44,146 bases of DNA, taken from positions 1 through 44,146 of the IMG/VR virus record IMGVR_UViG_3300032297_000260; one strand, 5' to 3'. The position numbers and the translations under genes are program-made. Source of the stretch: a virus. Below, one piece after another: positions 9,184 to 26,990 of the stretch (within the stretch, counting starts at the first letter, position 1; each line of letters begins with the position of its first letter). The notes below the pieces were generated by a model. That model had not been told where the DNA came from. It made no database searches and saw only the letters and a program-made list of their open reading frames with translations.

Positions 9184-9372
9184 ATGGCAGGTTATTTCCC
9201 CGCAACAGGATCAACAATTCAAATGGGTCGAGCCCGGGCAGCTCTATACAGTGGCAGCGCCAGTAATACAACCTACCTTCGTGCTGAATTGACTGCTTAT
9301 TATGGATTCAGTAGCGGACAGGTTGCTTTCAGTAGCACACTAGGTGGCCGCTACTATCCCTATACATATTAA
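9184..9372 (+). CDS. Small virion-type protein, Ser/Gly/Tyr-rich
   Basis: Encodes 62 residues: MAGYFPATGSTIQMGRARAAL, then AYYGFSSGQVAFSSTLGGRYYPYTY. The polar, Gly/Ser/Tyr-rich sequence and the SGQ-FSS-GG pattern resemble small tail or fibre-associated proteins of T4-like phages. It is expressed from a late-type promoter and sits at the head of the structural-type stretch. It has no enzyme motif. It could also be a substrate for the modifying enzymes downstream, but nothing in the sequence proves this. Confidence 0.6.
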   Translation: MAGYFPATGSTIQMGRARAALYSGSASNTTYLRAELTAYYGFSSGQVAFSSTLGGRYYPYTY

Positions 9373-10738: not shown

Positions 10739-10744
10739 ACTTTG

Positions 10745-10752
10745 ACTAAATA
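10745..10752 (+). promoter_or_regulatory. T4-type late promoter (ACTAAATA)
   Basis: Located 25 bases before the ATG at 10778; AGGA is in the leader. It could feed the long run of coupled genes that follows. Confidence 0.5.
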
Positions 10753-10777
10753 ATTCTATATTGTTCTAGGATTTCAT

Positions 10778-11623
10778 ATGGCCGGAAGAGGCGTTTTCCC
10801 CAAAGTTACAGGTGATACAGTCTATATTGAAGATTATAATGATCTTCAATCTATTATTGCCGGCGTAAAGACTACTTATTACGGTGTGGCCTGTACCAGC
10901 AGTCAGCTCCCTGCTAATTCATTAATCAATGACCTAGAATGGAATAATTTACAGATAGATATTAACAGTTGTATTAAACATCAAACTGGTAGTAACACAG
11001 CTATCTCTACCAAGAATCAAGACGATATAGTCTATGCAATTGATACCAATGTATATAGCACTCAATCATCAATTGCTAACACTAATAAAGCATCTGTGTT
11101 CGCTGGTACACAATTAGCTTTGGTTAATCCAAGTGGTGGCTCTAGTACTAATAGCGGCGGATGGAATACTTCAGTTAATCATGTAGTTACAGTTACCTGG
11201 GCTAGTCTAGCCGATGCAACTTATTTCTTTAATTGCGGCGGATCTGTAACATGGCAGGCTAGTTATAGCGGAGGAAGTTCAGCTGCTAATACTAAAGATA
11301 AAGCATGGAAAGCCTTAATTGATTCAGTAGGTATGTTACAGTACACTAGAGCAGACTATCTTGCTGGCGGTACTAAAACATTTGGTCCTTTCTATGCAGG
11401 TGTATATGTATACACTGCAAACTATATCACAATTACAGCGGTAAAAAACAGTGATACACAATTAACTATTACCGTATTGTTAAACGATGCTAGTGGTCCC
11501 AATCTTTGGGGTACTGATGAAACAGTAGGAACTAGCATTACCAGCGCAGTTGGATATTACAAAAGTGTTGATGCTATTGTTAGTCCTTTTCCAAACGCAA
11601 TTACAACTACTAACAGCCTATAA
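10778..11623 (+). CDS. Virion structural-type protein
   Basis: A 281-residue protein. Its start, MAGRGVFPKVTGDTVYIEDYNDLQSI, resembles a class of small structural proteins in T4-like marine phages. The rest is rich in Ser, Thr, Asn, Gly and Tyr with short beta-repeat stretches, as in tail-fibre or baseplate-attached proteins. There is no signal peptide, membrane segment or catalytic motif. Base composition shifts within the gene from the more balanced left part of the window to the AT-rich right part. It may be an adhesin or decoration protein. Confidence 0.65.
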   Translation: MAGRGVFPKVTGDTVYIEDYNDLQSIIAGVKTTYYGVACTSSQLPANSLINDLEWNNLQIDINSCIKHQTGSNTAISTKNQDDIVYAIDTNVYSTQSSIANTNKASVFAGTQLALVNPSGGSSTNSGGWNTSVNHVVTVTWASLADATYFFNCGGSVTWQASYSGGSSAANTKDKAWKALIDSVGMLQYTRADYLAGGTKTFGPFYAGVYVYTANYITITAVKNSDTQLTITVLLNDASGPNLWGTDETVGTSITSAVGYYKSVDAIVSPFPNAITTTNSL

Positions 11624-11671
11624 TTAGATTCCGTACCCCTTACTTTAGATAATTAAAGGTAAAGGTGTACT

Positions 11672-12007
11672 ATGGAAACTCTAAATCTCGAGCAAGCACT
11701 TAGCTTTGCCAATTATCAAACTGTACTTAATCAACAAAGACAACAGCTTAAACAAAAGTTCTTAACTGATTGTATTATAGCATATAACGGTGGATTGTTT
11801 AAAATCAGTCCAGAATTTATTCTAGCTGTGCAAAATTTAGGTTCAAACTGGGTATTAGATCTTAACAACAATCCTGTGTTAATTGAGGATTTATCCAATT
11901 TTGTTACCGTAGCAAAAGATTCCTATCAATCAGCAATTGAGACATACGGTCAATCTTATCAAAAACTTAAAACAAAACGAAATGTCAAGGCGTTAGTTGA
12001 CCTATGA
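11672..12007 (+). CDS. Conserved phage protein, unknown
   Basis: A 111-residue protein. It begins with a helical, Gln-rich stretch (NYQTVLNQQRQQLKQKF), then AYNGGLFKISPEFILAVQNL. It resembles small proteins coded beside fibre genes in T4-like marine phages. AAAGG precedes the ATG by about nine bases. It begins the chain of coupled genes extending to 26090, overlapping the next start by four bases. It could be an assembly chaperone, but that is a guess from position. Confidence 0.6.
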   Translation: METLNLEQALSFANYQTVLNQQRQQLKQKFLTDCIIAYNGGLFKISPEFILAVQNLGSNWVLDLNNNPVLIEDLSNFVTVAKDSYQSAIETYGQSYQKLKTKRNVKALVDL

Positions 12008-12837
12008 GTCAAGGTATTTTACTTTTTGCTCATAATAATGAGCAACTTAATTATGGTTACCTAGCAGTTTGGCAGGCAAGATTGATTAAAAAATATTTGA
12101 ATAAACCTGTCACTTTGGTTACTGACAAGGCAACAATTTACGACCTTCATAATAAGAAACTATTCAGTAAAGAGTTGTTTGATAGTATAGTAATTAGTGA
12201 TGCTGAAACTGACCAAAAAAGGTTAGTTGGAACAGAATGGGTTCTATTTAAAAATGTAGATAGATGCAATGCATATGACCTTAGTCCTTACGATGAAACT
12301 ATTGTAATGGATACTGATATCTTGTTACAATCAGACAAGTTAAATTTGTTATGGAACAGCAATGCTGACCTGTTAGTATCTAAAGATGCATATGATGTGT
12401 TTGATCGAACATACCCTGAGTTTGACTACTTAAAAGAACACGGCATAGAATTTTATTGGGCAACTGAATTTTATTTTAAGAAATGTGAATCTTCTAAGTT
12501 GTTCTTTGATACTTGTAAAAGAGTCAAAGATAATTATGAATGGTATGCGATTCTATATGGTATGAACAATTCACCTATTCGTAACGATCATGTTTGGAGT
12601 ATTGCTCTACATGAATTAGGTGGAGCGCAACACGGTTCTTGGGCAGAAACAATTCCTCGAATACTAAGATTTTCAATTGATAGAGATACAATATTAAAAA
12701 TTAACGATGGTGTTACAATTGGAACATCATATAATGGAAAATCCTATGTTACCCAATTAACAGGACAGGATGTGCATCTCATGAACAAAATTCAACTAAT
12801 TGAAATCATTAAAAAAGAATTAGGAGTAGAAGAATGA
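12004..12837 (+). CDS. GT8-like glycosyltransferase
   Basis: A 277-residue protein with a GT-A layout. An opening strand (GILLFAHNN) is followed by NKPVTLVTDK and SPYDETIVMDTDILLQ, where Asp103-Thr-Asp105 is the DxD metal site. A His residue (HLMNK) lies near the C-terminus. The layout is like nucleotide-diphospho-sugar transferases of family 8. It is paralogous to the next gene, sharing the LSPYDET-DxD stretch. Coupled at both ends by four-base overlaps, it probably adds sugars to the same target as its neighbour. Confidence 0.7.
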   Translation: MSQGILLFAHNNEQLNYGYLAVWQARLIKKYLNKPVTLVTDKATIYDLHNKKLFSKELFDSIVISDAETDQKRLVGTEWVLFKNVDRCNAYDLSPYDETIVMDTDILLQSDKLNLLWNSNADLLVSKDAYDVFDRTYPEFDYLKEHGIEFYWATEFYFKKCESSKLFFDTCKRVKDNYEWYAILYGMNNSPIRNDHVWSIALHELGGAQHGSWAETIPRILRFSIDRDTILKINDGVTIGTSYNGKSYVTQLTGQDVHLMNKIQLIEIIKKELGVEE

Positions 12838-13622
12838 GTCGAGGGTATTTGATAATGGCACAAGGTAACTATCTTAATATGGCTATTGCCCTTGCTGAAA
12901 GTATTAAAAATACACAATCAACTGTTAATAATGTGAGTATCATTGTTGATTGTGTAACAACAGATCATCCAGCGGTTGACCAATTTATTATATTACAAAA
13001 AGATATTTCAGGAAGTGCCGAATGGAAAATTCATAATAGAGCATTCTTTTATGAACTTAGTCCATATGATGAAACTGTCATATTAGATGCTGATATGTTA
13101 TTCTTAGAAGATGTAAGTCATTGGTGGGATTATATGTCTAAGCATGAAATGTTATGTACTAATAAAGTAAGAACATATCGTAATCAATTAGTTACCGATA
13201 ATCCATACCGTAAAGCATTTGTCGGTAATGATCTTCCTAATGTTTACAGCGCATTTACATATTTTAAAAAAACAGAGCTAGCTAAATCAGTATTTGATTT
13301 AGTTGTTAGTATTATCACATACTGGGATGAGTGGACATTTAGATATACCCCTGAAGATAGACAACTACAACCTAGCTTAGATGTAGCATTGGCAATCGCT
13401 ATTAAAATTTTAGATATAGAAGATCAAGTAACAAGCGTACTTGAATTTCCTACATTTACACACATGAAGAGTGGATGCCAAGGTTGGAAAAATTATTCAG
13501 AAGATTGGAAAGTACACTTAGGATTATACAAGACTAACAGCGGCATTAGACTAGGTAATCATTTGCAATCAGGTATATTACATTATGTAGATAAGAATTT
13601 CTTGAAAGAGATCAATAAATGA
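12834..13622 (+). CDS. GT8-like glycosyltransferase, paralogue of previous
   Basis: A 262-residue protein with the same plan as its upstream neighbour: start GYLIMAQGNYLNMA, then ELSPYDETVILDADMLFL with Asp85-Ala-Asp87. Overall similarity is confined mainly to the sugar-nucleotide half; the acceptor half differs. It overlaps the next gene by four bases. The pair probably arose by duplication and may act in sequence on one glycan. Confidence 0.7.
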   Translation: MSRGYLIMAQGNYLNMAIALAESIKNTQSTVNNVSIIVDCVTTDHPAVDQFIILQKDISGSAEWKIHNRAFFYELSPYDETVILDADMLFLEDVSHWWDYMSKHEMLCTNKVRTYRNQLVTDNPYRKAFVGNDLPNVYSAFTYFKKTELAKSVFDLVVSIITYWDEWTFRYTPEDRQLQPSLDVALAIAIKILDIEDQVTSVLEFPTFTHMKSGCQGWKNYSEDWKVHLGLYKTNSGIRLGNHLQSGILHYVDKNFLKEINK

Positions 13623-14164
13623 AATATGTATATTACGAACTAGGGACTGGATCAATTAAGATGATCAGTCCCGTTAAAGAAGAATCTTCAGAATACCCTT
13701 ATATAGAAGTAGAAGAAGATGCCATTGAAGATATATTTTCAGGAAAGAAAAAAGCAATTGACCATTTTGTTAAACCTAGTTCTAAGACATCGAATACAGG
13801 ATTAATTATTGCCAAAAAGAAAGATATTGTAACTTGGAAAAGTATTAATGATTGGCTCTACATGATACCTAACGAGAACGAATTTTATGAAATGCATGTA
13901 TTACAAGACATTGCCAACAAGCAAATTACAATTAATCTAACAGATAATGCAAAGATTTGGTGGAAAGGAAATAATTTTTTTCAGAAGAAGTACTTCTTGT
14001 TCTCTGCATGTATAGAAGGTGATCCTCACTTCATGACTTGGTACAAAATGATTCCTAGTGAAGAACTGTTAAACACTGTTTCATTTGAATATAGTGGCAA
14101 CGACAATATTAGATTTTATACACATAGATATTTTGAAAGTTATATACATGAGCAACATACTTAA
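13619..14164 (+). CDS. Unknown protein in glycosyltransferase run
   Basis: A 181-residue protein, mixed alpha/beta, with an acidic stretch (YIEVEEDAIEDIF) and a C-terminal half rich in aromatic residues (WWKGNNFFQKKYFLF). No motif is recognised. It overlaps its upstream neighbour by four bases and the following gene by 17. Position suggests a partner of the glycosyltransferases. Confidence 0.6.
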   Translation: MKYVYYELGTGSIKMISPVKEESSEYPYIEVEEDAIEDIFSGKKKAIDHFVKPSSKTSNTGLIIAKKKDIVTWKSINDWLYMIPNENEFYEMHVLQDIANKQITINLTDNAKIWWKGNNFFQKKYFLFSACIEGDPHFMTWYKMIPSEELLNTVSFEYSGNDNIRFYTHRYFESYIHEQHT

Positions 14165-15086
14165 TCTTGCAGAAGTTGACTGCATATATTTGAGCTACGA
14201 CGAACCAAACGCAGAAAAGAACTATGCCGATCTATTAAACAAGGCCCCGTGGGCTAAAAGAGTACACGGTGTTAAAGGCAGTGACGAAGCACATAAAGCG
14301 TGTGCTCGTTTAAGCGAAACAGATCGTTTTATTACTGTAGATGGCGACAATATTGTTGACCCTAAGTTCTTTGATGTAAGTATAGACTTAGACAAGATTG
14401 CTAATGGTGTAGACAAACAGTTTAGTTGGTGCGGCAAGAATAACATCAACGGATTAGTATATGGTAATGGTGGTTTGAAATGTTGGACTAAAGACTTTGT
14501 ACTCAACATGAAAACACACGAAGCGGCTGAAAGTGAACAAGGGCAGGTTGACTTCTGTTGGGAAAACAACTATACTCAAATGGTAGGCCTTTACTCTATG
14601 GTACACAATAATGCAAGCCCATTACAGGCATGGAGAGCTGGATTCCGTGAAGGAGTAAAGCTGACTCTTGATAATGGATTGAAACAGAAACTAATCAATC
14701 CTAAGAAACAAATTGTACGCCGTAACTATCAACGACTATTAATTTGGCAGTCAGTTGGTGCAGATGTAGAAAACGGACTTTGGGCAATATATGGTGCAAG
14801 GTTAGGTGTGTACCTAACAAACTGTACTGATTGGAATCATGTAGATGTACGAGACTTTGAATATCTTAATGAAATGTTTGCACTTGAACAACAATCTATT
14901 AACGAGTCAAACATACGAGAACATATTGCACTACTAGGTGAAAAGATTAGATTGCATTTGAATATGCCTGTAGCCGACTTAGATGAAACACAAAGCCGCT
15001 TCTTTAAAGATGTTTGGGTCAATCCTCCTAGACTAGAGTCTACCGTACGAGAGCAAGATACAGATTGGGATATATTAGAACTATGA
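14148..15086 (+). CDS. Phage GT-A-like glycosyltransferase
   Basis: A 312-residue protein; the start is set at ATG 14148, inside the end of the preceding gene. It has VDCIYLSYDEPNAEKNY, then APWAKRVHGVKG and RFITVDGDN with a DxD-like Asp-Gly-Asp at 65-67. A C-terminal domain contains WRAGFREGVKL. The same SYDEPNA...RVxGVKG...VDGD arrangement forms the C-terminal domain of the next gene, and it resembles a glycosyltransferase-like family in T4-like cyanophages. Catalysis is inferred from this layout only. Confidence 0.65.
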   Translation: MSNILNLAEVDCIYLSYDEPNAEKNYADLLNKAPWAKRVHGVKGSDEAHKACARLSETDRFITVDGDNIVDPKFFDVSIDLDKIANGVDKQFSWCGKNNINGLVYGNGGLKCWTKDFVLNMKTHEAAESEQGQVDFCWENNYTQMVGLYSMVHNNASPLQAWRAGFREGVKLTLDNGLKQKLINPKKQIVRRNYQRLLIWQSVGADVENGLWAIYGARLGVYLTNCTDWNHVDVRDFEYLNEMFALEQQSINESNIREHIALLGEKIRLHLNMPVADLDETQSRFFKDVWVNPPRLESTVREQDTDWDILEL

Positions 15087-17092
15087 ATATTATACCTAAA
15101 GAGTTAGTAGAAACAGTCAAGTGGGAAGAGCGCAAAGAAGACTATGATCAAGCAATGTTTGAGCTTGGTAAAGGTCTTGATCTCTTTTATGTAGTTAATC
15201 CCGAACTTCCTGAGTTTTATATTAACGCAATAGACAAAGAATATAGATCATCTAGGTGTGTATTATGGAAACATAATGATATCTGGGTTGTTAAACAGTT
15301 TCACAAAGATTGGACTCCGGCGCACGGCTGGACAATTAAAGAGTTACCTAATCTGCCTAAACAACATTGGAAAGTTAATCCAGATATAGATCCAACTGTC
15401 CTATTTGAAAATGATCCATTTAATAATTACAAGATAGGCCTTTGGGACTTAACATATAAACACACATGGTATCTTGATCCCAAGTATGATCCGGAAGGAA
15501 ATAAGATTTGGGTATATGAGTGTGTAACTGATTGGCTAGATACAGGTAACAAAGACCTTGAGATTATTCCAAAGTTAACTATCACTCACAATAAAGAGTA
15601 CAATCATATTAGATTTGATTACGGTGAGTTTGTCCCCGCTTATTATGACTTAAAGTACGAACATGTTTGGTATATAGATCCCAAATATACACAAGGACAG
15701 AAAGTATGGGCAAAGAGTGTATCGGCGTCTGTGATTAGTGATGGTACAAAAGATATGGGAATTGTTACTCCTGATCTTCCTAAACAAATATGGCATGTGA
15801 ATCCGGATGTTGATGCAGATGTTGTATTCGCCAATGATCCTAAAGATAAGTTTGTTATACCTATTTGGGATATTAACTTTAGTCATGTATGGTATCTAGA
15901 TCCTAAGTATTCTATTGCAGATGAAAAGGTATGGCTGTACAAATGTGAAACTGATTTTACATTTGAAGGCACAAAAGATATGGGATACCTTACGCCTGAT
16001 CTAATTATAGAACAGAATCCGTTGTTAGATGGAGTGACATTTGAATTAGATCCTATAAGTTTATTAGATTTAAAATATGAAAACATTTGGAATCTAGATG
16101 AAGTATACGGTGCGTGGAAAGACATGTGGGCTATTAATATTAAGCCGGCATGGAAGAACACAGAAGGAATTAAGTACAGAGGTTCTATTAGTCCTAACTT
16201 TAAATTATCTTTCAATACTGAGATCCCAGATTTACGATTTAATGTAGACTATAAGATTCCATACCCTGACTTCAAATACGAACATATATGGTATCTAGAT
16301 CCTAAGTATTCTATCGGTAAAAAAGTATGGCTAGCAAGTTTGTCAGCAGTAGAGCATACAGCAGGTGTTAAGGACATGGGCTATGCTATACCAGACATTG
16401 CCGAACAATTAGATGTAATCTTTATCAGCTACAACGAGCCAAATGCAGATGCTAACTGGCAACGAGTATTAGAGAAAGCTCCTAATGCTAAACGAGTAGA
16501 TGGTGTTAAAGGTATCTTTGAAGCACACAAAGCAGCCGCAATGGTTGCAAAGAGTGATATGTTCTATGTTGTTGACGGTGATGCTTACTTGACTGATGAA
16601 TGGCAGTTTGATTTTAGTCCTAATATCTTTGATAGAGATTGTGTGCATGTCTATAGAGCAATGAATCCTATTAACGATTTAACATACGGGTATGGTGGCG
16701 TAAAACTATTTCCTCGCAAGTTACTTTTAGAGGCAACTAACTGGAAAGTAGATATGACTACTAGTATTGCCAGAAAGTTAAAAGTGCTTAGAACAGTTAG
16801 TAATGTTTCCGCATTTAATACAGATGAAATTAGTACCTGGCGTAGTGCGTTCCGTGAATGTGCTAAGTTGGCAGCAGGCACAATTGACAACCAAGTTAGT
16901 GCAGAAACAGAACGCAGATTAAAACTATGGACAAGCAAAGGTACCGATAGGAAGTTTGGTAAGTATGCTATCGCAGGAGCGAAAGCTGGCATGGCATTTG
17001 GCCTTAAGAACAAATTAGACGATAAGTTAATGCAACAAATAAACGACAGACAATGGTTAGAGACACAATTTAAAAATGCAAAATTACATTAA
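15083..17092 (+). CDS. Multi-repeat protein fused to GT-A-like domain
   Basis: A 669-residue protein; the start is at the ATGA overlap with the upstream gene. Residues up to about 440 carry five copies of a 65-80 residue module centred on D-(L/I/F)-x-Y-x-H-x-W-Y-(L/I)-D-P-K-Y, followed by KVW and often GTKDMG. The fourth copy has diverged (WNLDEVY). Residues about 442-669 are the SYNEPNA...RVDGVKG...VVDGD domain, paralogous to the preceding gene, with FRECAKL near the end. Two modules share a 28-base identical DNA run, pointing to recent duplication. The repeats may bind a glycan or a repetitive fibre while the last domain acts on it. Confidence 0.7.
   Translation: MNIIPKELVETVKWEERKEDYDQAMFELGKGLDLFYVVNPELPEFYINAIDKEYRSSRCVLWKHNDIWVVKQFHKDWTPAHGWTIKELPNLPKQHWKVNPDIDPTVLFENDPFNNYKIGLWDLTYKHTWYLDPKYDPEGNKIWVYECVTDWLDTGNKDLEIIPKLTITHNKEYNHIRFDYGEFVPAYYDLKYEHVWYIDPKYTQGQKVWAKSVSASVISDGTKDMGIVTPDLPKQIWHVNPDVDADVVFANDPKDKFVIPIWDINFSHVWYLDPKYSIADEKVWLYKCETDFTFEGTKDMGYLTPDLIIEQNPLLDGVTFELDPISLLDLKYENIWNLDEVYGAWKDMWAINIKPAWKNTEGIKYRGSISPNFKLSFNTEIPDLRFNVDYKIPYPDFKYEHIWYLDPKYSIGKKVWLASLSAVEHTAGVKDMGYAIPDIAEQLDVIFISYNEPNADANWQRVLEKAPNAKRVDGVKGIFEAHKAAAMVAKSDMFYVVDGDAYLTDEWQFDFSPNIFDRDCVHVYRAMNPINDLTYGYGGVKLFPRKLLLEATNWKVDMTTSIARKLKVLRTVSNVSAFNTDEISTWRSAFRECAKLAAGTIDNQVSAETERRLKLWTSKGTDRKFGKYAIAGAKAGMAFGLKNKLDDKLMQQINDRQWLETQFKNAKLH
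15888..16314 (+). repeat. 28-base identical run in two protein modules
   Basis: Bases 15888-15915 and 16287-16314 are identical over 28 positions and encode the same part (WYLDPKYSI) of modules three and five in the repeat protein. Neighbouring modules use different codons for the same residues. Confidence 0.85.
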
Positions 17093-18383
17093 GAATTTAG
17101 ACGAAGCACTACCTACATTTTGTGCCACTCCTTTTGTTAGCATAATGGTTAACACAGATGCCACAGTGAGATATTGCTGTATGGTTAAAGGTGCGTTGAA
17201 CAAGATTAAAAAGCCAGACGGCTCAGTATATACAATTAACGAACCGTTTATTAAAGAAGCATGGAACAGTAAAGACATGCAGGACATCCGAATGTCTATG
17301 GTATCTGGACAACAAGTAGAAGGATGTAGTACTTGCTACCTACAAGAAGCCAGCGGCCGTGTTAGTAATAGACAACACAGCAATCAAGAGTGGGCAGGCA
17401 GACTAGGCACAACTAAGATTGATAAGTTGATTGATGATGCTATTCTTAATAATGGCATCCTTGAAAACAACATTGCCTATTTAGATCTACGATTAGGCAA
17501 CCTTTGCAATTTAAAATGTAGAATGTGCAATCCATATAACAGTACACAGATTGCCAAAGAACATATCGAATTAGAAAAGAAAGATGCCGCATATAAAGTT
17601 GTTTGGGCTAATACATTTGGCAAGTTCAACGAAAAGATTATGGATGTGCAAGAATGGTTTGATCAAGATATGCTATGGGATCAAGTTATTGCCCTAATTC
17701 CTAGCCTGCATAAAGTCTACATGACAGGAGGTGAGCCTACCTTAATTGAGAACAACTTTAGATTTATGCAAGCCTGTATCGATCAAGGACGCACTGACAT
17801 TGTATTATTCTTTAATACAAACTGTACAAACATTAATAAGAAGTTCTTATCTTTGATTAGTCAGTTTAAACAAGTTAACATTAACGCAAGTATGGATGGG
17901 GTTGGCATTGTTAATGAATATATTCGTGCTCCTAGTAAGTGGAGTCAGATTAGTGCTAACATCGAAAAGCTAGCACAAATGCCTAATGTGGTATTAGGTG
18001 TTACTCCTACAGTACAGGTATATAATGTATTCAATCTAGTTGACACCCTTGAATGGGTTGACGAACTTAATCAAAAGTATAATTCAAATACATTTGTTGA
18101 CTTCTTAATCAATGTACATCCACATCAACTTGCTGTGGGCATACTTCCTGATGATATTCGTAAGGATGCTGCTGATAGATTAATTGCTTACAACTCAACA
18201 GGCAAGCATGAGTTAACTGTTAATAGCATTGCAGGCATTATTGGACTATTACAACGACCTAGAGATGAAGACTGGCAGTACCAACAAAAGGAATTAAAAG
18301 TGTATACACTGAGCTTAGATAAAGAAAGAGATCAAAACATTGCCGATGTTGATGCTCGTATTGCGGAGTTTGTAAATGAGTAA
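17076..18383 (+). CDS. Radical SAM protein with N-terminal twitch-like domain (1 of 4)
   Basis: A 435-residue protein. The N-terminal region has FC-x-x-PF (Cys16), a Cys pair (34-35) and EGC-x-x-CY (84, 87), resembling a twitch/SPASM-type auxiliary Fe-S module placed before the core. The radical SAM motif C-x3-C-x2-C is at 144, 148 and 151 (LCNLKCRMC), followed by TGGEPT for SAM binding and SMDGVG. It should cleave SAM to a 5'-deoxyadenosyl radical; the substrate is unknown. The start at 17076 lies 17 bases inside the previous gene and has no Shine-Dalgarno, so it depends on coupling. Annotated relatives occur in T4-like marine phages. Confidence 0.88.
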   Translation: MQNYIKNLDEALPTFCATPFVSIMVNTDATVRYCCMVKGALNKIKKPDGSVYTINEPFIKEAWNSKDMQDIRMSMVSGQQVEGCSTCYLQEASGRVSNRQHSNQEWAGRLGTTKIDKLIDDAILNNGILENNIAYLDLRLGNLCNLKCRMCNPYNSTQIAKEHIELEKKDAAYKVVWANTFGKFNEKIMDVQEWFDQDMLWDQVIALIPSLHKVYMTGGEPTLIENNFRFMQACIDQGRTDIVLFFNTNCTNINKKFLSLISQFKQVNINASMDGVGIVNEYIRAPSKWSQISANIEKLAQMPNVVLGVTPTVQVYNVFNLVDTLEWVDELNQKYNSNTFVDFLINVHPHQLAVGILPDDIRKDAADRLIAYNSTGKHELTVNSIAGIIGLLQRPRDEDWQYQQKELKVYTLSLDKERDQNIADVDARIAEFVNE

Positions 18384-19620
18384 GTCTAAAACATTCTGCA
18401 TCTTACCTTGGATACATGCCGCTACATACACAGACGGCAGCGCATTGCTTTGCTGTGTGGCCAAATCAGATAGAGAAACTAATCTAAACAACATGACAAT
18501 GAAGGAAGCATGGAACAGTCATATGTTTAAAGATGCTAGACTAAAAATGTTGCGTGGGGAAGAAGTTAGTAATTGCCATCACTGTTATGCTGAAGAAGAA
18601 GTAGGCATGCATAGTCACAGGCTAGTTGAAAACTATGTTTGGTATAAGAAGTTAGGTAAAGAATACTTAGACGATCTTGTTGCAAAAACAAAACAAGATG
18701 GTAGTGTTGACCACGACTTCATTACGCTAGATCTACGATTAGGCAATACCTGTAATTTACAATGTATCATGTGCCGCCCTGTCGATAGTAGTAAATGGGT
18801 CAAGCACGCCAACATCCTTAAGGACGAATTAACAACAGAAGTCAAATGGGATTGGAAACACAAGGTAGAAGATTACAGCGTAAAGAATTTTGAATGGTAC
18901 AAAGATGCAGAGTTCTTGGAAAGTTTCTATGCCAATGCTGGCGGAATCAAACACATCATTTTTGGTGGTGGTGAACCGTTGTATATCAAAGAACACAAAG
19001 AGATTATTAAACAGTTAGTTGATCGTGGACATAGCAAAGATATTGAACTTCGTTATCATACCAACGGTACTATTTGGGATCAAGAAGTTGCAGACCTGTG
19101 GACACAATTTAAACGAGTCGAAGTAATGATTAGTCTAGATGGAGTAGGAGAAGTAAACGATTACATTCGTTACCCTGCAGATTGGCCTACAATTGAAAAG
19201 AATCTAGCCCTGTATGATAATACACCGGATATGATTGATCCTAAAATTTTATGTACAGTACAGGCAATGAACATTGACCACCTGCCTGAGTTTGCAGATT
19301 GGTTGTTAGACAAGAACTATAAGAAAATTAGTAAGAAGTCGCAGGATGGAATATTCCATCCAGGTATATTACATTATCCGCAATACCTAAGTCCTAAAGT
19401 ATTACCTGCTGCCGTCAAAGAAAGAATAACATTAAAGCTAGCAGAGTATGCTAATAAACATTTAGATAATGCACACATTCAAAAGTTTAAACAACTAACT
19501 GAACTAATGAATAGTGAAGACTTGAGTTTTATGTTTAATCAGACAATGGAATACATAAACAAATTAGATCAACTACGATCAAGCGATAGTACTTTTTTCA
19601 GGACAGTAATAAATGGATGA
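18376..19620 (+). CDS. Radical SAM protein with N-terminal twitch-like domain (2 of 4)
   Basis: A 414-residue paralogue of the preceding gene. Auxiliary cysteines are C8 (FCILPW), C26-C27 and C67/C70 (NCHHCY). The radical SAM cysteines are 126, 130 and 133 (TCNLQCIMC), with FGGGEPL and SLDGVG. GGAG is seven bases before the ATG, which overlaps the previous gene by eight bases. The paralogues keep all eight cysteines but differ elsewhere, so they probably act on different positions or substrates. Confidence 0.88.
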   Translation: MSKSKTFCILPWIHAATYTDGSALLCCVAKSDRETNLNNMTMKEAWNSHMFKDARLKMLRGEEVSNCHHCYAEEEVGMHSHRLVENYVWYKKLGKEYLDDLVAKTKQDGSVDHDFITLDLRLGNTCNLQCIMCRPVDSSKWVKHANILKDELTTEVKWDWKHKVEDYSVKNFEWYKDAEFLESFYANAGGIKHIIFGGGEPLYIKEHKEIIKQLVDRGHSKDIELRYHTNGTIWDQEVADLWTQFKRVEVMISLDGVGEVNDYIRYPADWPTIEKNLALYDNTPDMIDPKILCTVQAMNIDHLPEFADWLLDKNYKKISKKSQDGIFHPGILHYPQYLSPKVLPAAVKERITLKLAEYANKHLDNAHIQKFKQLTELMNSEDLSFMFNQTMEYINKLDQLRSSDSTFFRTVING

Positions 19621-20971
19621 TAGCATTAACGATCTAAGAAAAGAAATTCTAAAGAGCGAAACATTTTGTTTCTATCCTTTCTTAGAATTAAGCACAAACC
19701 CAGCAGGACATTTAAAACCTTGCTGTTATTATAGCAATGTACTGTTTAAAGGTGATGAAGGCGATTACACCAACATCTATAGTATCACTAAGAATAGTAC
19801 GCTTGAAGAAGCATGGAATTCTCGTCCTATGATTGAGATTAGAAGGCAGCTAGTAGAAGGTGAAGTCAATAAGAACTGTGATACCTGCTATAGAGATGGC
19901 CCTGCAAGTATGCGTGTCAGAAGTATTGGCGAATACAAAAACAATGCTGAAGTATTGACTAAAGTACAAGATACAATTTTAAACGGATACGAAACACCTT
20001 ATTTGCCTAGTAGGTTAGAATTAAAGCCCAGCAATCTTTGTAATTTGAAATGTGTAATGTGTAACAGTTATGATTCTACTCAAGTTGCAAAAGAATTAGT
20101 TGAACTATCGAACAAGTTTAAAGGCATTAATGTTAAGACTGGCCGATTCATTAGTATTAATCTAGAACAGCCTGGTATTACTGAAACACATGCAGCATTT
20201 GAAGATGTAGAAGTTCCCGACTGGTCAGATAACGACGAGCTATGGAATAGTTTTACTAAAATTGCTCCAGGATTAGAACATTTAAGTTTTGCTGGTGGTG
20301 AGCCTACTTTAATTCCGTTTGTACAAAAAGTATTAGATTACTGTGTAGAACAAGACTATGCAAAGAATATTAAAATCAGTGTCGCTAGTAATTTTACAAA
20401 CATGAATAAAAACTTCTTAGAAGTTATGCCTAAATTTAAAAGGTTTGAAATTATTGCAAGTATTGATGGCATTGGCCTAGTTAATGACTACTGTAGATAT
20501 CCTAGCAAATGGAGTCAGATCTCGAGTAATTATGAAAAGACAAAACAATTAACTAAACATTCTAATGTTAAGATAATGACAAACATAACAGTTAACTTTT
20601 TAAATGTTATGAATTTAGATCAATTATTGTATTGGATTGAAGACCAAGCAGACCGATATCCTTATTTCCGCGAATATCCGTATAATATAAATTTAATTTG
20701 GTCTCCTAACGATCAACGAATCGAACATTTACCTAATCACCTTAAAGAGATTGCCATTCAACGACTAGAAAAATATAAGTCAACAAGCAGTATATTAAAA
20801 GAATTTCCAGGAATGGTTTCTAGAATTGATTTAGTATTAAATGAGTTAAAAAAACAAGGTAGCGAGTACGAACTAGAACAGTTTAAGAAAAGACTCAAAG
20901 TTTTAGATGAACATAGAGGAATTAATGTAGTAGACTATATTCCAGACTTAGGAGATGCCTTTAATGAATAA
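19613..20971 (+). CDS. Radical SAM protein with N-terminal twitch-like domain (3 of 4)
   Basis: A 452-residue paralogue. Auxiliary cysteines are C19 (FCFYPF), C37-C38 and C89/C92 (NCDTCY). The radical SAM motif is C143-x3-C147-x2-C150 (LCNLKCVMC), with AGGEPT and SIDGIG. It is closest to copy 1 in the stretches around the cluster (CNSYDSTQVAKELVEL against CNPYNSTQIAKEHIEL). The start overlaps the previous stop region by eight bases. Confidence 0.88.
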   Translation: MDDSINDLRKEILKSETFCFYPFLELSTNPAGHLKPCCYYSNVLFKGDEGDYTNIYSITKNSTLEEAWNSRPMIEIRRQLVEGEVNKNCDTCYRDGPASMRVRSIGEYKNNAEVLTKVQDTILNGYETPYLPSRLELKPSNLCNLKCVMCNSYDSTQVAKELVELSNKFKGINVKTGRFISINLEQPGITETHAAFEDVEVPDWSDNDELWNSFTKIAPGLEHLSFAGGEPTLIPFVQKVLDYCVEQDYAKNIKISVASNFTNMNKNFLEVMPKFKRFEIIASIDGIGLVNDYCRYPSKWSQISSNYEKTKQLTKHSNVKIMTNITVNFLNVMNLDQLLYWIEDQADRYPYFREYPYNINLIWSPNDQRIEHLPNHLKEIAIQRLEKYKSTSSILKEFPGMVSRIDLVLNELKKQGSEYELEQFKKRLKVLDEHRGINVVDYIPDLGDAFNE

Positions 20972-22070
20972 ATCTATCTGTGCTTACCCTTGGAATGCAA
21001 CAGCAATACGACCAAATGGTATTGTCATTCCTTGTTGCAGGTATCCACACATAGATGACAGCAATAGCAATGTACTTTCTGTTGAACCTAGAAATTCTAA
21101 CCATTGGAATAATCTACGACAAGATATGTTAGAAGGTAAAGAAATTGCAGGATGTATAAGTTGTTATCAAGATGAGGCAACTGGAATAGATAGTATGAGA
21201 ACAACTAGTCTTAAGAATTTTATTCCTATTAATAAAGAAATAGAAAAATTAACAAGACTAGAAGTATCTTTTAGCAACTTATGTAATCTTGCATGTGCTC
21301 ATTGTTCTTCCTTCTTTTCAAGCAAATGGTATTCTGAAGATGTAAAAGCTGGCCGCAAGGAAAAATCAGGATATATTGAAAATAGTTTTAATTTTAACAA
21401 TTGGGATTTATCCAAATTAACTGATCTTAAAATTATTGGCGGCGAACCATTTATGGAACAAAAACAATTTGTTTCATTAATGAACAGTATCGATTTATCA
21501 AAAATAGAATTACAGATATGTACCAATGGTACAATATTACCTGGACCTGAATTAAAAGGTTTAATAGAGAAATGTAAAAAAGTTTATCTATGTGTTAGCC
21601 TAGATGGTATTGGCTCTGTTAATGATTGGTATCGTTGGCCGAGTAAATTTAACGAGGTTGTAGAAAATATGAAGAAATTTGAACAATGGTGGGGCGGATC
21701 TTCTAATATTATTTTTATAGTTCATCATGTTATTAACGCTATTAATGTTATTGACTTACCAAAATTTATTAGTTTTATAAATGATAATTTTTCTAGATGG
21801 ATTATTGAGTGGGACTGGATTCGATGGCCAGAATGGCAAGAATTATCAGTACTGCCTGAAATAATTAAAGTTAAACTAATTGAAGAATTTAAACAGAAAG
21901 AAGAAAGTTTTAATTCTAAGCATACTCAAAATCCTTATGCTTCTACGATTAGCAGATTATTAGAAAATCGTTCAACATCATGGGAAACTGCTATAGTTAA
22001 GATGTTCAATATATCAACAGAAAGACAATTAGATTTTCTTTCTATGGTACCTAATTTTAAAAATATATGA
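20964..22070 (+). CDS. Radical SAM protein with N-terminal twitch-like domain (4 of 4)
   Basis: A 368-residue paralogue, the shortest. Cysteines are C6 (ICAYPW), C24-C25, C64/C67 (GCISCY), then radical SAM C107-x3-C111-x2-C114 (LCNLACAHC), with IGGEPF and SLDGIG. The start at 20964 has AGGAG nine bases upstream; an ATG at 20955 directly abuts that site and is less likely. It overlaps the previous gene by eight bases and the next by four. Confidence 0.87.
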   Translation: MNKSICAYPWNATAIRPNGIVIPCCRYPHIDDSNSNVLSVEPRNSNHWNNLRQDMLEGKEIAGCISCYQDEATGIDSMRTTSLKNFIPINKEIEKLTRLEVSFSNLCNLACAHCSSFFSSKWYSEDVKAGRKEKSGYIENSFNFNNWDLSKLTDLKIIGGEPFMEQKQFVSLMNSIDLSKIELQICTNGTILPGPELKGLIEKCKKVYLCVSLDGIGSVNDWYRWPSKFNEVVENMKKFEQWWGGSSNIIFIVHHVINAINVIDLPKFISFINDNFSRWIIEWDWIRWPEWQELSVLPEIIKVKLIEEFKQKEESFNSKHTQNPYASTISRLLENRSTSWETAIVKMFNISTERQLDFLSMVPNFKNI

Positions 22071-22996
22071 AAATTCTAAAAGTAATATTTTTAGACAAGT
22101 TTGATAAAACACATTCCTTATATTATAGGATCTATGATACTGACTTAGCAAATCGCTGGATGAAATTAATTGAAACAAACAAGTCACAAAAGAAGAAATT
22201 GTTTAATAAATTTACCAATCAGATTTACTCTGACTTGCCTGAAGTAACTGAGAATTTGAATAAAATAGTTACTGATATTAATAAACGATACGATCAACAA
22301 TTACCAATATATGATACGCTAGATACTGACAAGTTAAACTATCTACACGAACAATTTGAAGTATATGGAGATAGAGTTGAAGAGTTTTCTAAGAATAAAA
22401 CTTGGACTGATGAATTGCATCAATTATTTTTAAGATTAAATGATGCAATTCATTTAACAGAGGATGTATTAAAGACTAAATCTAGGGATTGGCCCAGCTT
22501 TGCTATGTTGTACGATTATATTCCTCAAGAACATCATTTACCAATTAACGAAGAAGATAAGTTCTTACTTCGGCCTAACCTACAATGGGGCAAAATATAC
22601 CTAGGATATAATACGCTAGGGAAAGATTGGCTTAAAGTACAATGTGATAACGATATAGAAGTTGTTGAGAGAGATCAAGTTAGACCACAAGAACGATTTG
22701 CTGCTGAAAGCTGGTTAAACTTTGGTCCCGATCAAGATTACAATACTTCTATGATGCGTTTCTATCAGTGGTATAAAGGTTTGCCTGAAGACTTACAAGC
22801 TAAAGTACCTATGTATAATCACTATCAATTAAACTTAGGTAGATTTATTTTAGGCGAACTAATTATTGATGAGTACTTTCTATCATTTCACAACAATGAA
22901 GAAGATTGGCACACACCTAGACATCAATGTAAAATTGATTGGTGCATGAAAGTTTTTACAACATTTAGATCCTTACAGGATATTAGTTTTATATGA
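22067..22996 (+). CDS. Unknown protein following radical SAM genes
   Basis: A 309-residue protein, helical and charged in its first half (NKSQKKKLFNKF, LNKIVTDINKRY), with a more ordered second half containing GKIYLGYNTLGKDW, PQERFAAESWLNFG and a final His/Trp-rich stretch (FHNNEEDWHTPRHQCKIDW). No known catalytic motif. It is coupled by four-base overlaps to the radical SAM gene before it and the oxygenase after it, so it is probably a partner in the same process. Confidence 0.65.
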   Translation: MKILKVIFLDKFDKTHSLYYRIYDTDLANRWMKLIETNKSQKKKLFNKFTNQIYSDLPEVTENLNKIVTDINKRYDQQLPIYDTLDTDKLNYLHEQFEVYGDRVEEFSKNKTWTDELHQLFLRLNDAIHLTEDVLKTKSRDWPSFAMLYDYIPQEHHLPINEEDKFLLRPNLQWGKIYLGYNTLGKDWLKVQCDNDIEVVERDQVRPQERFAAESWLNFGPDQDYNTSMMRFYQWYKGLPEDLQAKVPMYNHYQLNLGRFILGELIIDEYFLSFHNNEEDWHTPRHQCKIDWCMKVFTTFRSLQDISFI

Positions 22997-23664
22997 ACGC
23001 AGAACTATTACAATTTGTAGAAGCCAACGGTAAGTTTAATTGGAGACCTGATCCAAAAAACTATCCTGCTAATCTTTGGAATAGTGATTGGCCATTTGTT
23101 ACATATGAAAAGACTATAGATCCATTTTTCGTACAAATGGAGCTTGAGAAGATTGATCATTTGTTTGTAGAACATCGATCAAAGGATAGTTACGGACACA
23201 GTGGTTGGAGTTCAATCACTCTACACGGCATAGACTACAACAAAACAGAACACTTTGATAGGTATGGTTTTACCAATGAAGCAGATGCAAATTATCAATG
23301 GACTAGTATATGCAATCAAATACCATACATAACCAATGTAATTAAGAATCTGCCGTTTTGTGATTATGGTCGTATACGGATCATGAGACTCGCCCCTGGA
23401 GGTTTCGTAATGCCACATAAAGATGGTAATGGTAGAACATTTGGACCTTTTAATTTTGCTCTTACCAATCCTGTAGGATGTAAGTTTATATTTGAAGGTT
23501 ATGGAGTTGTTCCATTTGCCCAAGGCCGCGGTTGTATGCTAGACTTAGGAATACGACATGCAGTCTTTAATGAATCTGATCAGAATAGGTATCATGTTAT
23601 TGTACATGGTAGTCCTACTAGTAAGTTTTATCAAGGAATGATGAGTTCAATTGCACACCTATGA
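22993..23664 (+). CDS. 2OG-Fe(II) / aspartyl-asparaginyl hydroxylase-like oxygenase
   Basis: A 223-residue protein. GRIRIMRLAPGGFVMPHKDG carries His142-x-Asp144; the distal His189 (RHAVFNES) and Arg199 (NRYHVIVHG) complete the iron and 2-oxoglutarate site. The order and spacing fit the aspartyl/asparaginyl beta-hydroxylase family. It would hydroxylate a protein side chain or small molecule using O2 and 2-oxoglutarate. It is coupled by ATGA overlaps on both sides, placing it in the same unit as the radical SAM enzymes. Confidence 0.8.
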   Translation: MNAELLQFVEANGKFNWRPDPKNYPANLWNSDWPFVTYEKTIDPFFVQMELEKIDHLFVEHRSKDSYGHSGWSSITLHGIDYNKTEHFDRYGFTNEADANYQWTSICNQIPYITNVIKNLPFCDYGRIRIMRLAPGGFVMPHKDGNGRTFGPFNFALTNPVGCKFIFEGYGVVPFAQGRGCMLDLGIRHAVFNESDQNRYHVIVHGSPTSKFYQGMMSSIAHL

Positions 23665-25022
23665 ACATAGTTACTGAGTATCTAACTAACACAAATAAAT
23701 TAGCTATCTGTATATTTCCTGCAGATACATGTAACCATGAGCAGTTGATGGATAAAATGATATCTTATACTATGTTCTATGCGTTAAGATTCAGAAGCAT
23801 AATTGATCACATTGATATTGTGTACGCTGACAGTATAGACGATGCACTACAAACATTCACGAAGTATAATCATATTTTGTTTATAGCCGCAGGTGTTCGG
23901 ATATATGATTCAAGTATTTTGATTGATGTTAACAATGTTATAAATGACAATCCTAAGTACATGGCCGCCGCACATATTTTAGAATGGGGCAATGACTGGT
24001 ATGAACTGCATCACCAATTTGTGTTAGTCAATATTAAAAACTGGCAGGCTGCTGGTAAACCTGTATACGGTGGTTGGAAACCTGATGTTGACATATTACC
24101 TGCTATACAGCGAAGTAAAGAAAACTTTCACGATGATTATACACCTCTTTGGATTAAACCTACTGGAGAACACATGTGGATTTATCACGAGAAGCAAGGA
24201 TGGAACTTTATTGGAGAAGCTCTAATGAACGGATTTGAAATAGTTAATTGGTCTAAACAAATTAGAGATAAGCGAACTTATTATTATCCAGAGACTAATA
24301 GTGATTTGTTTTACAATTGTTTAATGAATAGACAACATCATGTTGACATTACAAATCCTAATCAAAGAAAGTTAATTAACGAAACAATAGGCATTGCAGA
24401 TCAAGTATGGGTACTGAACAGCGAAGATATGGATATAATGAGTAACGGAGAAAGATATGACTTGGTTGCTCTACCTGCTAGTGGTTTTAAATATTTAGAT
24501 ATTTTTAAAAGTAATGCGTTAAAGAACAACGGAAAGATTATTATATACGATTTTAATCAAGATAGTTTAGACTGGATTGAAACAATATACAAGTCTACCT
24601 CAACTGATTTTAGATCTATTGTTGCATCATTTCCTAACCATAGTGAACTAAAATGGTACGGTATTAAGAATCCTCCTATACTAACAATTGATGGTGCGTT
24701 ATGCAATGAGTTTCTAAGAGATTTCCAATTAACAATAGATTATTTTGGTGGTAGAAAGTTATTCTTAAAATATCTAGAGCAATTTAGAAATGCAGATGTA
24801 TTGTTTGTTAAAACAGATTTGCTGTATAATAATACTAACCTAATAGATACAATTGGAACAGGAAAGTCTATGCTACACATATCTAATATATTTGCTACAG
24901 ACTTTATCAATGCACGACTCGGATTAGACGAAATGGGCAAACTATACAGTAAGTTTAGGTCGTCGTTGAGTAAAAATACACGAGTGATAGGACTCACACC
25001 TTATAATGAATTTTGCAGTTAA
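23661..25022 (+). CDS. Two-part unknown protein, nucleotide-sugar or SAM fold likely
   Basis: A 453-residue protein. The first ~200 residues resemble a GT-A layout (HIDIVYADSIDDAL, YNHILFIAAGVRIYD, where a DxD would stand but is missing). The second half has YDLVALPASGFKYLDIFKSNALKNNGKIIIYDFN, similar to the SAM-binding half of a methyltransferase. Neither half has its full catalytic set. Overlaps the next gene by 17 bases and is probably functionally tied to the methyltransferase there. Confidence 0.55.
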   Translation: MNIVTEYLTNTNKLAICIFPADTCNHEQLMDKMISYTMFYALRFRSIIDHIDIVYADSIDDALQTFTKYNHILFIAAGVRIYDSSILIDVNNVINDNPKYMAAAHILEWGNDWYELHHQFVLVNIKNWQAAGKPVYGGWKPDVDILPAIQRSKENFHDDYTPLWIKPTGEHMWIYHEKQGWNFIGEALMNGFEIVNWSKQIRDKRTYYYPETNSDLFYNCLMNRQHHVDITNPNQRKLINETIGIADQVWVLNSEDMDIMSNGERYDLVALPASGFKYLDIFKSNALKNNGKIIIYDFNQDSLDWIETIYKSTSTDFRSIVASFPNHSELKWYGIKNPPILTIDGALCNEFLRDFQLTIDYFGGRKLFLKYLEQFRNADVLFVKTDLLYNNTNLIDTIGTGKSMLHISNIFATDFINARLGLDEMGKLYSKFRSSLSKNTRVIGLTPYNEFCS

Positions 25023-25557
25023 CAAAGATGCGTTCAGTAGTGGACAAATAGGCAGTAAGCTATGGTTATGCCAAGAATTAGAAAATTTAAGATGGACATC
25101 TGATCTAACCTACATCTATGCAGGTTGGTATGGTATTACTGCCTTTTTACTATTGTCTAGGGGAAAGTTTCGAGTAGGTAAAATTAGAAGTTTAGATATT
25201 GATCCATCTGCACAAGAAGTGGCTGATATGGTTAACGAAAATTGGGTTATCGATGATTGGAAGTTTAAAGCATTTACACAAGATTGTAACAACTTTGAAG
25301 GACAGTACGGTGACTTAATTATTAATACAAGTACCGAGCACTTTGAGAGTATGGAATGGTTTGATAAGATACCCAATGGAACACGAGTTATTCTTCAAGG
25401 TAATAACATGCCGCATGATGATCATCATGTACATTCAGTAACACTTAACGATTTTGCACAGAAGTATCCGTTGACAAATACTGTATATCTTGGAGAAAAA
25501 CACTTTACATACCCTAGCTGGAGCTTTATTAGGTATATGGTAATGGGATACAAATGA
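25006..25557 (+). CDS. SAM-dependent methyltransferase-like protein
   Basis: A 183-residue protein. LTYIYAGWYGITAFLLLSRG is a variant of methyltransferase motif I, followed by KIRSLDIDPSAQEVADMV with the acidic residue after strand 2, and GDLIINTSTEHF as motif IV. The Gly-rich loop is reduced compared with the classic GxGxG. It would methylate an unknown acceptor. The start lies within the end of the previous gene. Confidence 0.65.
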   Translation: MNFAVNKDAFSSGQIGSKLWLCQELENLRWTSDLTYIYAGWYGITAFLLLSRGKFRVGKIRSLDIDPSAQEVADMVNENWVIDDWKFKAFTQDCNNFEGQYGDLIINTSTEHFESMEWFDKIPNGTRVILQGNNMPHDDHHVHSVTLNDFAQKYPLTNTVYLGEKHFTYPSWSFIRYMVMGYK

Positions 25558-26090
25558 TTAATAAATTGTCCTTTATAGCAGACTTAGAACAAGTTAAGAA
25601 TGATCTTGCTTTAGTATTAACATACACTGAGTGGGGAGAAGACAACCAAATTTCTTTGAAGCATAGGACGGGTGCAATTAATACATGGAAAGACGGTATC
25701 GGTAGCTTATATGATAAAACTTCTCGGTCTGATACAGCACACGAAAAGGACTTCACTGAATACAATGAACACCTTCCTGAATATACATTAAACCTACTCA
25801 AAGATTTTTCTCAATCACAAGGATTTGAATTGGGTAGAGTTCGTTATATGCGTCAGCTATCTAAGCGAGGGTTAAGTGTACATAAGGACACTAGCAAGCG
25901 ATACCATTTAGCTATACAAACTAATGAATTTTCGTATTTTGGATTTGGGTTAGATAAAGGACCAGTTAAGGCGTTCTGTTATCATATTCCTGCAGACAGT
26001 AATTTTTACATGGTTGATACAACTAAACAGCATTTTGTATATAATGGTGGATGGGAAGACAGAGTACATTTGGTTATTTGTCCTGCATGA
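25554..26090 (+). CDS. 2OG-Fe(II) / aspartyl-asparaginyl hydroxylase-like oxygenase
   Basis: A 178-residue protein. RVRYMRQLSKRGLSVHKDTSKRYHLA carries His110-x-Asp112; His160 (TTKQHFVYNGG) and Arg170 (EDRVHLVIC) complete the site. It has the same layout as the oxygenase at 22993 but is shorter. It is the last gene of the coupled chain that began at 11672; the next gene has its own late-type promoter 9 bases after this stop. Confidence 0.78.
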   Translation: MINKLSFIADLEQVKNDLALVLTYTEWGEDNQISLKHRTGAINTWKDGIGSLYDKTSRSDTAHEKDFTEYNEHLPEYTLNLLKDFSQSQGFELGRVRYMRQLSKRGLSVHKDTSKRYHLAIQTNEFSYFGFGLDKGPVKAFCYHIPADSNFYMVDTTKQHFVYNGGWEDRVHLVICPA

Positions 26091-26111: not shown

Positions 26112-26990
26112 ATGAAACACAGTATAGAAGACGGACGCTATTGCATAGAATTAGAAACAGAAGGGTTTATCCCTGCTTTTGAAAAGCAAAGTTTCTATAA
26201 GGACGCACGACAGTTATTAGATAAAGAAAAAGACATTCCGGCTGTAATGTTTAGCGGCGGACTTGATAGCCAAATTGTAGTTAAAAGTCTAATGGCAAAT
26301 AATGCAGAGTTTGAGTGCTTCTTTATGTACAGGCCAGGCGCTAACGAAACCGAGCTAGAAAACGCTCGCTTGTGTCAGAAACGATGGGGTTTCAGATTGA
26401 ACATCATCGATATAGACCCAGTTGCTGACTTTCAAAGTTATCAACAACTAATGCCTGCGGCAGATATTACTGGATATTCTTACTGTCTATATCACAGCTT
26501 CACTAAACAGATTCCGGATACATTCTCTTTAATACAAGGTACTGCACCGTATCTAATATTATGGAGAGGTAAGACTGAACTAGAAGTTATCTTCTCTTAT
26601 TATGATAGCATCGAACAGAACAGACGGGTAATTGATCACACAGCAGGCAAACCTAGGCATATACATTTTCCGTACACTGATAAGCTACACTGTATGATGA
26701 TGTCTAACCAATATGTTAACCATTTACGGAATTGCTTTGACTACTATGCCTTCCAGTATAATGATATGTTAGACAAATACAGTATTTGGGACAATTGCTT
26801 TAAGCCGTTAATACATAGTCATATATGGGGAGACGAACTAATCTATTTTCCTAAGAAGCATGGTATGGAAAATATGTATTGGGCTACCCATAGTATTCCA
26901 CCTGGCCGTAAAATCTTTATGAAGCATATTGACTACGAAAATTTGTTTAAGACAACTACCGGAACACAAAAGTTTTATGAAGCTAGATGA
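26112..26990 (+). CDS. PP-loop ATP pyrophosphatase (1 of 3)
   Basis: A 292-residue protein. VMFSGGLDSQ at 46-54 is the SGGxDS PP-loop of N-type ATP pyrophosphatases (asparagine synthetase B C-domain, QueC, TtuA, ExsB type). It would adenylate a carboxylate or similar group using ATP. No glutaminase domain and no zinc-binding cysteine set were found, so it is neither a complete asparagine synthetase nor an evident QueC. It overlaps the next gene by 14 bases. Confidence 0.8.
   Translation: MKHSIEDGRYCIELETEGFIPAFEKQSFYKDARQLLDKEKDIPAVMFSGGLDSQIVVKSLMANNAEFECFFMYRPGANETELENARLCQKRWGFRLNIIDIDPVADFQSYQQLMPAADITGYSYCLYHSFTKQIPDTFSLIQGTAPYLILWRGKTELEVIFSYYDSIEQNRRVIDHTAGKPRHIHFPYTDKLHCMMMSNQYVNHLRNCFDYYAFQYNDMLDKYSIWDNCFKPLIHSHIWGDELIYFPKKHGMENMYWATHSIPPGRKIFMKHIDYENLFKTTTGTQKFYEAR

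Follow-up and report, generated by a model that had tools for sequence, protein, structure and literature searches.

A conserved viral glycosyltransferase block followed by four radical SAM enzymes with a front-placed cysteine module: a candidate radical-tailoring operon

The stretch of DNA analyzed here, referred to as the window, is a 44,146-base IMG/VR virus record (IMGVR_UViG_3300032297_000260), a fragment of a virus genome. It encodes four tandem radical S-adenosylmethionine (SAM) enzymes, termed A (17076-18383), B (18376-19620), C (19613-20971), and D (20955-22070), behind a conserved block of genes headed by a Ser/Thr/Gly-rich, Cys/Lys-poor protein (10778-11623). We tentatively propose that this Ser/Thr-rich protein is the client of a viral glycosylation operon and that A to D form its variable tail, which carries out radical tailoring; a surface protein or a surface sugar is probably what these enzymes decorate. 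The enzymes belong to a real, widespread, and very common viral family, and what is new here is a fixed operon head, an ancient pair formed by A and B, a link to the Bdellovibrionota, and a concrete candidate client. All window genes between 10778 and 26090 described below lie on the plus strand, and genes are named by their first position where no other name is given.

RESULTS

The cysteine-rich module precedes the radical SAM core in all four enzymes

The four open reading frames (ORFs) overlap serially by 8, 8, and 17 bases. Alignment of A to D confirmed the preliminary description of eight cysteines kept in the same order (C16, C34, C35, C84, C87, C144, C148, and C151 in A numbering), the last three of which form the invariant C-x3-C-x2-C core. 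The paralogues differ elsewhere, as had also been described, with B, C, and D only 26 to 34% identical to A. All four matched nearly the full length of the profile NF033640 (N_Twi_rSAM, twitch domain-containing radical SAM protein), with scores of 359, 376, 317, and 235 bits for A, B, C, and D, respectively, against a curated cutoff of 170 bits. The Pfam SPASM profile (PF13186) matched at the N terminus, at residues 16 to 88 of A, 8 to 71 of B, and 19 to 93 of C, with D below threshold (18.7; gathering score, 21.5), and the Pfam Radical_SAM profile (PF04055) was above its gathering score in A and B and reached 26.8 versus 29.5 in C and D. These matches bear out the claim that a SPASM/twitch-type module stands ahead of the core. 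In SPASM maturases, the auxiliary module is placed after the core, and the preliminary description had taken the reverse order as a departure from the norm; since all four enzymes pass NF033640, the layout is instead an already named architecture.

To place the cysteines within the wider family, we aligned 303 unique viral ORFs of at least 300 amino acids. The three core cysteines were aligned in 303/303, and the full set of eight was aligned in 158 of the 173 ORFs scoring at least 300 bits, in 36 of the 55 scoring 150 to 300 bits, and in none of the 75 weaker ones, where the N-terminal five were mostly lost together. Because the full set fades in low scorers, the N-terminal cysteines are a trait of the N_Twi family and not of any radical SAM enzyme. 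The invariance seen in a further alignment of 75 sequences is partly a matter of choice, as these were hand-picked from 180 nonredundant sequences with high scorers first.

The AlphaFold2 (AF2) model of B had a predicted local distance difference test score (pLDDT) of 95.0. Its nearest solved folds in Foldseek were CteB, SkfB, BlsE, and anSME, all of them SPASM enzymes that act on peptides or sugars, and VIA-align gave Z scores of 11.8 to 13.3 to SPASM enzymes (BlsE, 13.3; anSME, 13.2). Thus, the structural comparison to SPASM proteins that had been suggested placed the core of B nearest to these enzymes. The matches mainly covered residues 84 to 382, with the N-terminal module scarcely aligned, and for this reason cluster binding at the N terminus is inferred from sequence, which marks the module as a putative auxiliary Fe-S cluster site.

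A and B are an old pair found in viruses and Bdellovibrionota

A profile scan of viral contigs confirmed at least 585 relatives, and 80 loci were retained from it in order of their similarity to A; the presence of A in these loci is built in by the ranking, and that of B, the partners, and their order is free of it. Several viral contigs carried arrays of five or more radical SAM genes. A scan of genomes yielded 76 loci, and 56 of these carry the label Bdellovibrionota. In a FastTree phylogeny (186 sequences), bacterial members grouped with each of A, B, and C, those in the clade of A including Bdellovibrionota, and C fell in a starred clade with loci L024, L103, and L169 (C is also present in L103 and L104). 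D formed a long, uncertain branch; besides the near twin of the window, L008, it had a single clear relative, in L024 (54%).

Both A and B were present in 39 loci, which collapsed at 85% identity to 27 groups, of which 19 are viral and 8 come from genome contigs (seven carrying the label Bdellovibrionota and one only "bacterium"). A lay directly upstream of B in 33 loci; the order was reversed in two, and in a few the genes were close but nonadjacent. Some viral and some bacterial loci of this kind hold a third radical SAM enzyme with the full N-terminal SPASM motif. Within the groups, A and B were 23 to 31% identical, and this low identity, together with their separate clades, each with bacterial members, rules out a recent tandem duplication. 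Judged from these sequence comparisons, A to D are old paralogues, and A and B are ancient partners. The earlier proposal that the paralogues carry out successive steps on one substrate gains indirect support, in that viruses and Bdellovibrionota alike retain A and B as neighbors, each from its own ancient lineage.

Assigning the labels virus and bacterium to the tree required 32 changes, at least 21 of them forced by starred branches; therefore, viruses and bacteria exchanged these genes repeatedly. Within the class to which one Bdellovibrionales genome belongs, with about 14 candidates scored per genome, 39/118 genomes exceeded the NF033640 cutoff, versus 1/115 in a control phylum, the one being its seed. 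Leaving out the known positives, namely the central genome and two further seed genomes in the class and the control seed, the counts were 36/115 and 0/114. One Bdellovibrionia genome (G004, which includes locus L152) had 33 NF033640 matches, 19 of them over the cutoff. We also observed split enzymes in viruses and in a Bdellovibrionales genome, in which a small stand-alone SPASM-like protein directly follows a separate radical SAM core (L066:4184-4573, L085:6235-6573, L106:11861-12265, and L257:11142-11513). A census of bacterial neighborhoods covering 146/150 near and 118/148 far sampled proteins showed little enrichment and did not strongly favor a glycan setting: GT2 was found in 7/146 near versus 3/118 far, and Epimerase lay outside the 25 families listed for near and was found in 3/118 far.

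A Ser/Thr-rich protein and glycosyltransferases form the fixed head of the operon

In the window, the 10778 protein is followed by a small companion protein (11672-12007) and two paralogous GT8-like glycosyltransferases (12004-12837 and 12834-13622) with the DXD-type motifs DTD and DAD, respectively. Next come a protein in the slot after this pair (13619-14164), a GT-A-like protein (14085-15086, likely start 14148), and its blastp paralogue (15065-17092), in which a second GT-A-like domain is joined to N-terminal W-Y-L-D-P-K-Y repeats and whose relatives range from about 220 to 1107 amino acids. The island begins at positions 10000 to 12000 of the window, where the guanine-plus-cytosine (GC) content drops from about 0.46 to 0.32 and the skew changes.

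The constancy of this block was assessed in 80 viral loci chosen solely by the 12834 glycosyltransferase, using as denominators the loci with enough sequence. A 10778-like gene lay upstream of the glycosyltransferase in 67/68 loci, an 11672-like gene was present in 68/68, and a 14085-like gene was present in 65/65; the 13619 family filled the slot directly after the glycosyltransferase in 67/80. An N_Twi radical SAM gene followed within 8 kb in 62/65 loci, in numbers that varied from none to four within that distance, longer arrays being found elsewhere. Family conservation per slot was 0.73 to 1.0 from -3 to +2 and about 0.2 past +5. When loci were instead selected by 10778, those with at least 6 kb downstream contained the glycosyltransferases in 19/19 cases and a radical SAM gene in 9/19, and thus the protein and the glycosyltransferases are the fixed part and the radical SAM genes are a variable extension. 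In genome contigs, too, 14085-like genes adjoin radical SAM genes.

The profile of the 12834 family resembles glycogenin (E value of 2e-5 over about 100 positions), a protein glycosyltransferase, and a weak Glycos_transf_2 match was found in 3/14 relatives of 14085. The relatives of 10778 (n = 123) are rich in Thr (13%) and Ser (10%) as well as Gly and Ala and are poor in Cys (0.3%) and Lys (2%). The genes before 10778 in many loci are presumably structural, and 28/80 of the loci selected by the glycosyltransferase hold a family which we take to be UDP-sugar-dehydrogenase-like. Profile searches of the PDB with 22067, 23661, 14085, 25006, and 10778 gave nothing useful. Among the three candidate substrates named earlier (9184-9372, 10778-11623, and 11672-12007), these data favor 10778-11623, as a full-length client and not as the precursor of a ribosomally synthesized and posttranslationally modified peptide (RiPP).

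Downstream partners include a cyclophilin-like protein and two oxygenases

Directly after D lies a protein (22067-22996) whose AF2 model (pLDDT, 90.9) resembles a cyclophilin barrel with a helical insertion. VIA-align gave Z scores of about 9 to 10.6 to cyclophilins over about 120 to 148 residues (best match, 10.6 over 137 residues); Foldseek alone returned no match at an E value of ≤1e-3. Two aspartyl/asparaginyl hydroxylase (AspH)-type 2-oxoglutarate (2OG) oxygenases follow, at 22993-23664 (PF05118, 43.1 bits, E value of 5e-11) and 25554-26090 (26.7 bits, E value of 6e-6; gathering score, 22.6), both with an HKD motif. With the glycosyltransferases at 12004, 12834, and 14085, they substantiate the described coupling of the radical SAM genes to a 2OG oxygenase and glycosyltransferases. 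In L020, a relative of the protein at 23661-25022 is joined to a B12-binding radical SAM protein, and the protein at 25006-25557 recurs in radical SAM loci (33 blastp relatives in 32 loci). Among the viral A-B groups, a 22067-like protein was present in 14/19 and an AspH-type oxygenase in 13/19. In L032, a 22067-type protein is fused to an AspH domain, and this fusion hints at a protein client.

A closely similar block occurs once in a bacterial contig

Contig JABGUH010000022.1 (L140; 139,884 bases), from a Bdellovibrionales metagenome-assembled genome, keeps the order of the window, with 10778-like (E value of 3.8e-28), 11672-like (E value of 1e-23), 12004-like, 12834-like, and 14085-like genes and two N_Twi radical SAM genes. 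The slot of 13619 is taken by a 163-amino-acid ORF missed by the 13619 profile, and a split radical SAM core and stand-alone SPASM protein come after the block. The same contig holds ORFs which we take to be phenylalanyl-tRNA synthetase and ribosome-related genes, the block lying past them, where GC content falls from about 0.47 to 0.36. Because of this drop, and because a 10778-like gene was found in no other genome of the 129 in this class, the block in L140 is a lone and probably acquired case; the contig may also be chimeric.

DISCUSSION

A protein client is tentatively favored

In the proposed mechanism, the glycosyltransferases would build a short glycan on the 10778 protein, which would probably be a virion or fiber surface protein. 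Each radical SAM enzyme would use its core [4Fe-4S] cluster for hydrogen atom abstraction, with the putative N-terminal auxiliary cluster serving in electron transfer or binding, and each would alter sugars or glycosylated residues differently, with A and B catalyzing consecutive steps. Hydroxylation and presentation of the 10778 protein would next fall to the AspH-type oxygenases and the cyclophilin-like protein. The virion surface would thereby acquire a variable chemistry, suited to host recognition or hiding. The near-constant 10778 neighbor, its composition, the glycogenin-like glycosyltransferases, and the fusion of the cyclophilin-like and AspH domains all point toward a protein client, though at somewhat less than even confidence. 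The near repetition of the block order in L140 and the peptide- or sugar-acting SPASM enzymes closest in fold to B also speak for the proposal.

Several observations weigh against this proposal. Searches of PHROGs, Pfam, and the PDB with 10778 gave no usable match and thus no direct sign of modification or of a virion role, and shared descent can by itself preserve gene order in phages. The block was met in a single bacterial contig, close to whose end it coincides with a fall in GC content. The eight bacterial A-B groups were searched for the viral partners, including 22067 and AspH-type proteins, and contained none of them; in these groups, flanks extend at most 10 kb (some viral loci likewise end early), so that the absence of a partner in such loci is no proof of absence; as these partners were not found there, A and B must have a substrate in bacteria too. 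Finally, the client and glycosyltransferase families were not found in the searched stretch of Vibrio phage K566, which has lipid A genes in their place.

This phage was met in a search of 50,697 phage records at a threshold of 1e-5, in which B matched three records: a marine virus of 7,955 bases and two Vibrio phages, K566 and K567, the only named cultivated phages among the matches. The 10778, 14085, 12834, and 22067 proteins had no match in these records at that threshold, and the window had no nucleotide match among phage isolates. K566 has six NF033640 matches, two above the cutoff; a glycosyltransferase identity for the ORF between its radical SAM genes was unsupported.

Host envelope remodeling is the strongest alternative

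A less probable but serious alternative is that the enzymes remodel the host envelope, modifying lipopolysaccharide (LPS) O-chains or lipid A during infection and blocking superinfection, with the AspH-type oxygenases acting like LpxO, a member of PF05118. In K566, an annotated PagP and an LpxC relative (E value of 6.5e-19) lie 3 to 4 kb past the radical SAM array (L006:21978-23244). In L155, an N_Twi radical SAM enzyme and a Wzt-type O-antigen transporter form a fusion protein, and another such enzyme lies beside ORFs in L162 that we take, from their sequences, to be Wzm and Wzt, an O-antigen-like setting. The window itself carries a fatty-acid desaturase (PF00487), the first of two tandem paralogous ORFs at 31686-33180, the second being its blastp paralogue. 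In the account of Pelagimyophage host recognition clusters, glycosyltransferases (mostly GT8) accompany radical SAM cassettes and are read as envelope remodeling genes (PMC7029224). However, envelope remodeling leaves the near-invariable Ser/Thr-rich head gene unexplained, and glycan genes are only weakly enriched near the bacterial copies. A tandem set of four paralogues of about 250 amino acids, one with a weak Sulfotransfer_1 match, was also observed in the window at 34316-37318.

A broader version of the protein-client proposal is doubtful. In it, a modular radical SAM assembly line would be common to predatory Bdellovibrionota and to the tailed phages that infect aquatic bacteria, and it would write a variable, radical-made chemical pattern on a glycosylated adhesin or fiber meeting the prey cell. 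The ordered N-terminal-SPASM paralogues, from one to many, would have been kept over long times, as a chemical counterpart of tail fiber variation.

Peptide, small-molecule, and nucleic acid substrates are improbable

It is improbable that the radical SAM enzymes, 2OG enzymes, and glycosyltransferases mature a short ribosomal peptide, in a RiPP-like pathway for which polytheonamide-type proteusin pathways are the model. The SPASM module, the RiPP maturases among the nearest folds, and the AspH and B12-binding radical SAM partners would fit such a pathway, but the small ORFs lying up to 4 kb from the radical SAM genes yielded no precursor candidate that withstood scrutiny. The small Ser/Tyr-rich protein of 62 amino acids at 9184, proposed earlier as a possible precursor, had blastp homologues in just 6/82 other loci, each closely related to the window, and was rejected. 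Many viral contigs encode a protein of 34 to 56 amino acids with the C-terminal sequence (K/R)LKxLRKxDPFIY (L040:12056-12172, L156:11936-12040, L007:5703-5822, and 80 loci, L175 to L254). It appeared promising in 13 loci and also failed, as an independent scan found an N_Twi radical SAM gene in 8/80 loci and a family presumed to be carbamoyltransferase-like in 78/80. A further, strongly conserved protein of 71 to 76 amino acids (ATNNNIxQFNxQAHHNSQxWYxAVIxWY..YGxLPSK) was observed in 15 radical SAM loci (e.g., L051:3858-4082 and L118:8669-8893), and this small protein of about 74 amino acids is absent from the window.

Even less probable is a small molecule or carbamoylated sugar, secreted as a metabolite. 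Genes that we take from their sequences to be carbamoyltransferase-like occur in 11 viral loci and in 13 loci from genome contigs, in some cases right beside an N_Twi radical SAM gene, and L157 has aminotransferase and sulfotransferase domains fused to such an enzyme; however, such phages commonly carry carbamoyltransferase-like genes while lacking radical SAM genes, and no export genes were recognized within the window. Hypermodification of DNA or RNA bases is very improbable: in the region 26112-29787, PP-loop-like proteins at 26112 (weakly QueC-like) and 28115 (weakly TilS-like) precede a Rieske oxygenase, but among the compared loci these genes are scarcely found beyond the window and its near twin L008.

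Significance and comparison with known systems

For an enzyme subfamily known by name alone, these results supply a stable genomic context, a candidate client, an ordered pair, and bacterial relatives, and they open the role of viral radical SAM enzymes to experimental testing. Should the Ser/Thr-rich protein prove to be the client, phages apply radical chemistry to a glycoprotein surface; should it be LPS, they possess a new superinfection-related envelope toolset. Either outcome would be useful to enzymologists, since radical enzymes with the auxiliary domain in front lack functional characterization so far as the literature was searched. No account of the function of N-terminal-twitch enzymes or of Bdellovibrio radical SAM arrays was found there, including in the available parts of PMC7029224 and PMC7150976.

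Among known systems, the maturases SkfB, CteB, and anSME and the sugar-acting BlsE share the core fold and SPASM-type cysteines with the enzymes of the window, in which, unlike in those proteins, the auxiliary module comes before the core. The likeness of the 12834 family to glycogenin and GT8 is one of sequence profile. A to D share the full NF033640 profile, all above its cutoff; that entry names an architecture only, whereas here ancient paralogues stand in fixed order behind a glycosyltransferase operon. The closest genomic parallel is the Pelagimyophage host recognition cluster, described as an island of variable content near tail fiber genes that carries radical SAM cassettes along with glycosyltransferases (PMC7029224). 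The available part of that account mentions the cassettes in passing, and the present analysis extends it by a fixed operon head, an ordered pair of paralogues, and relatives in bacteria.

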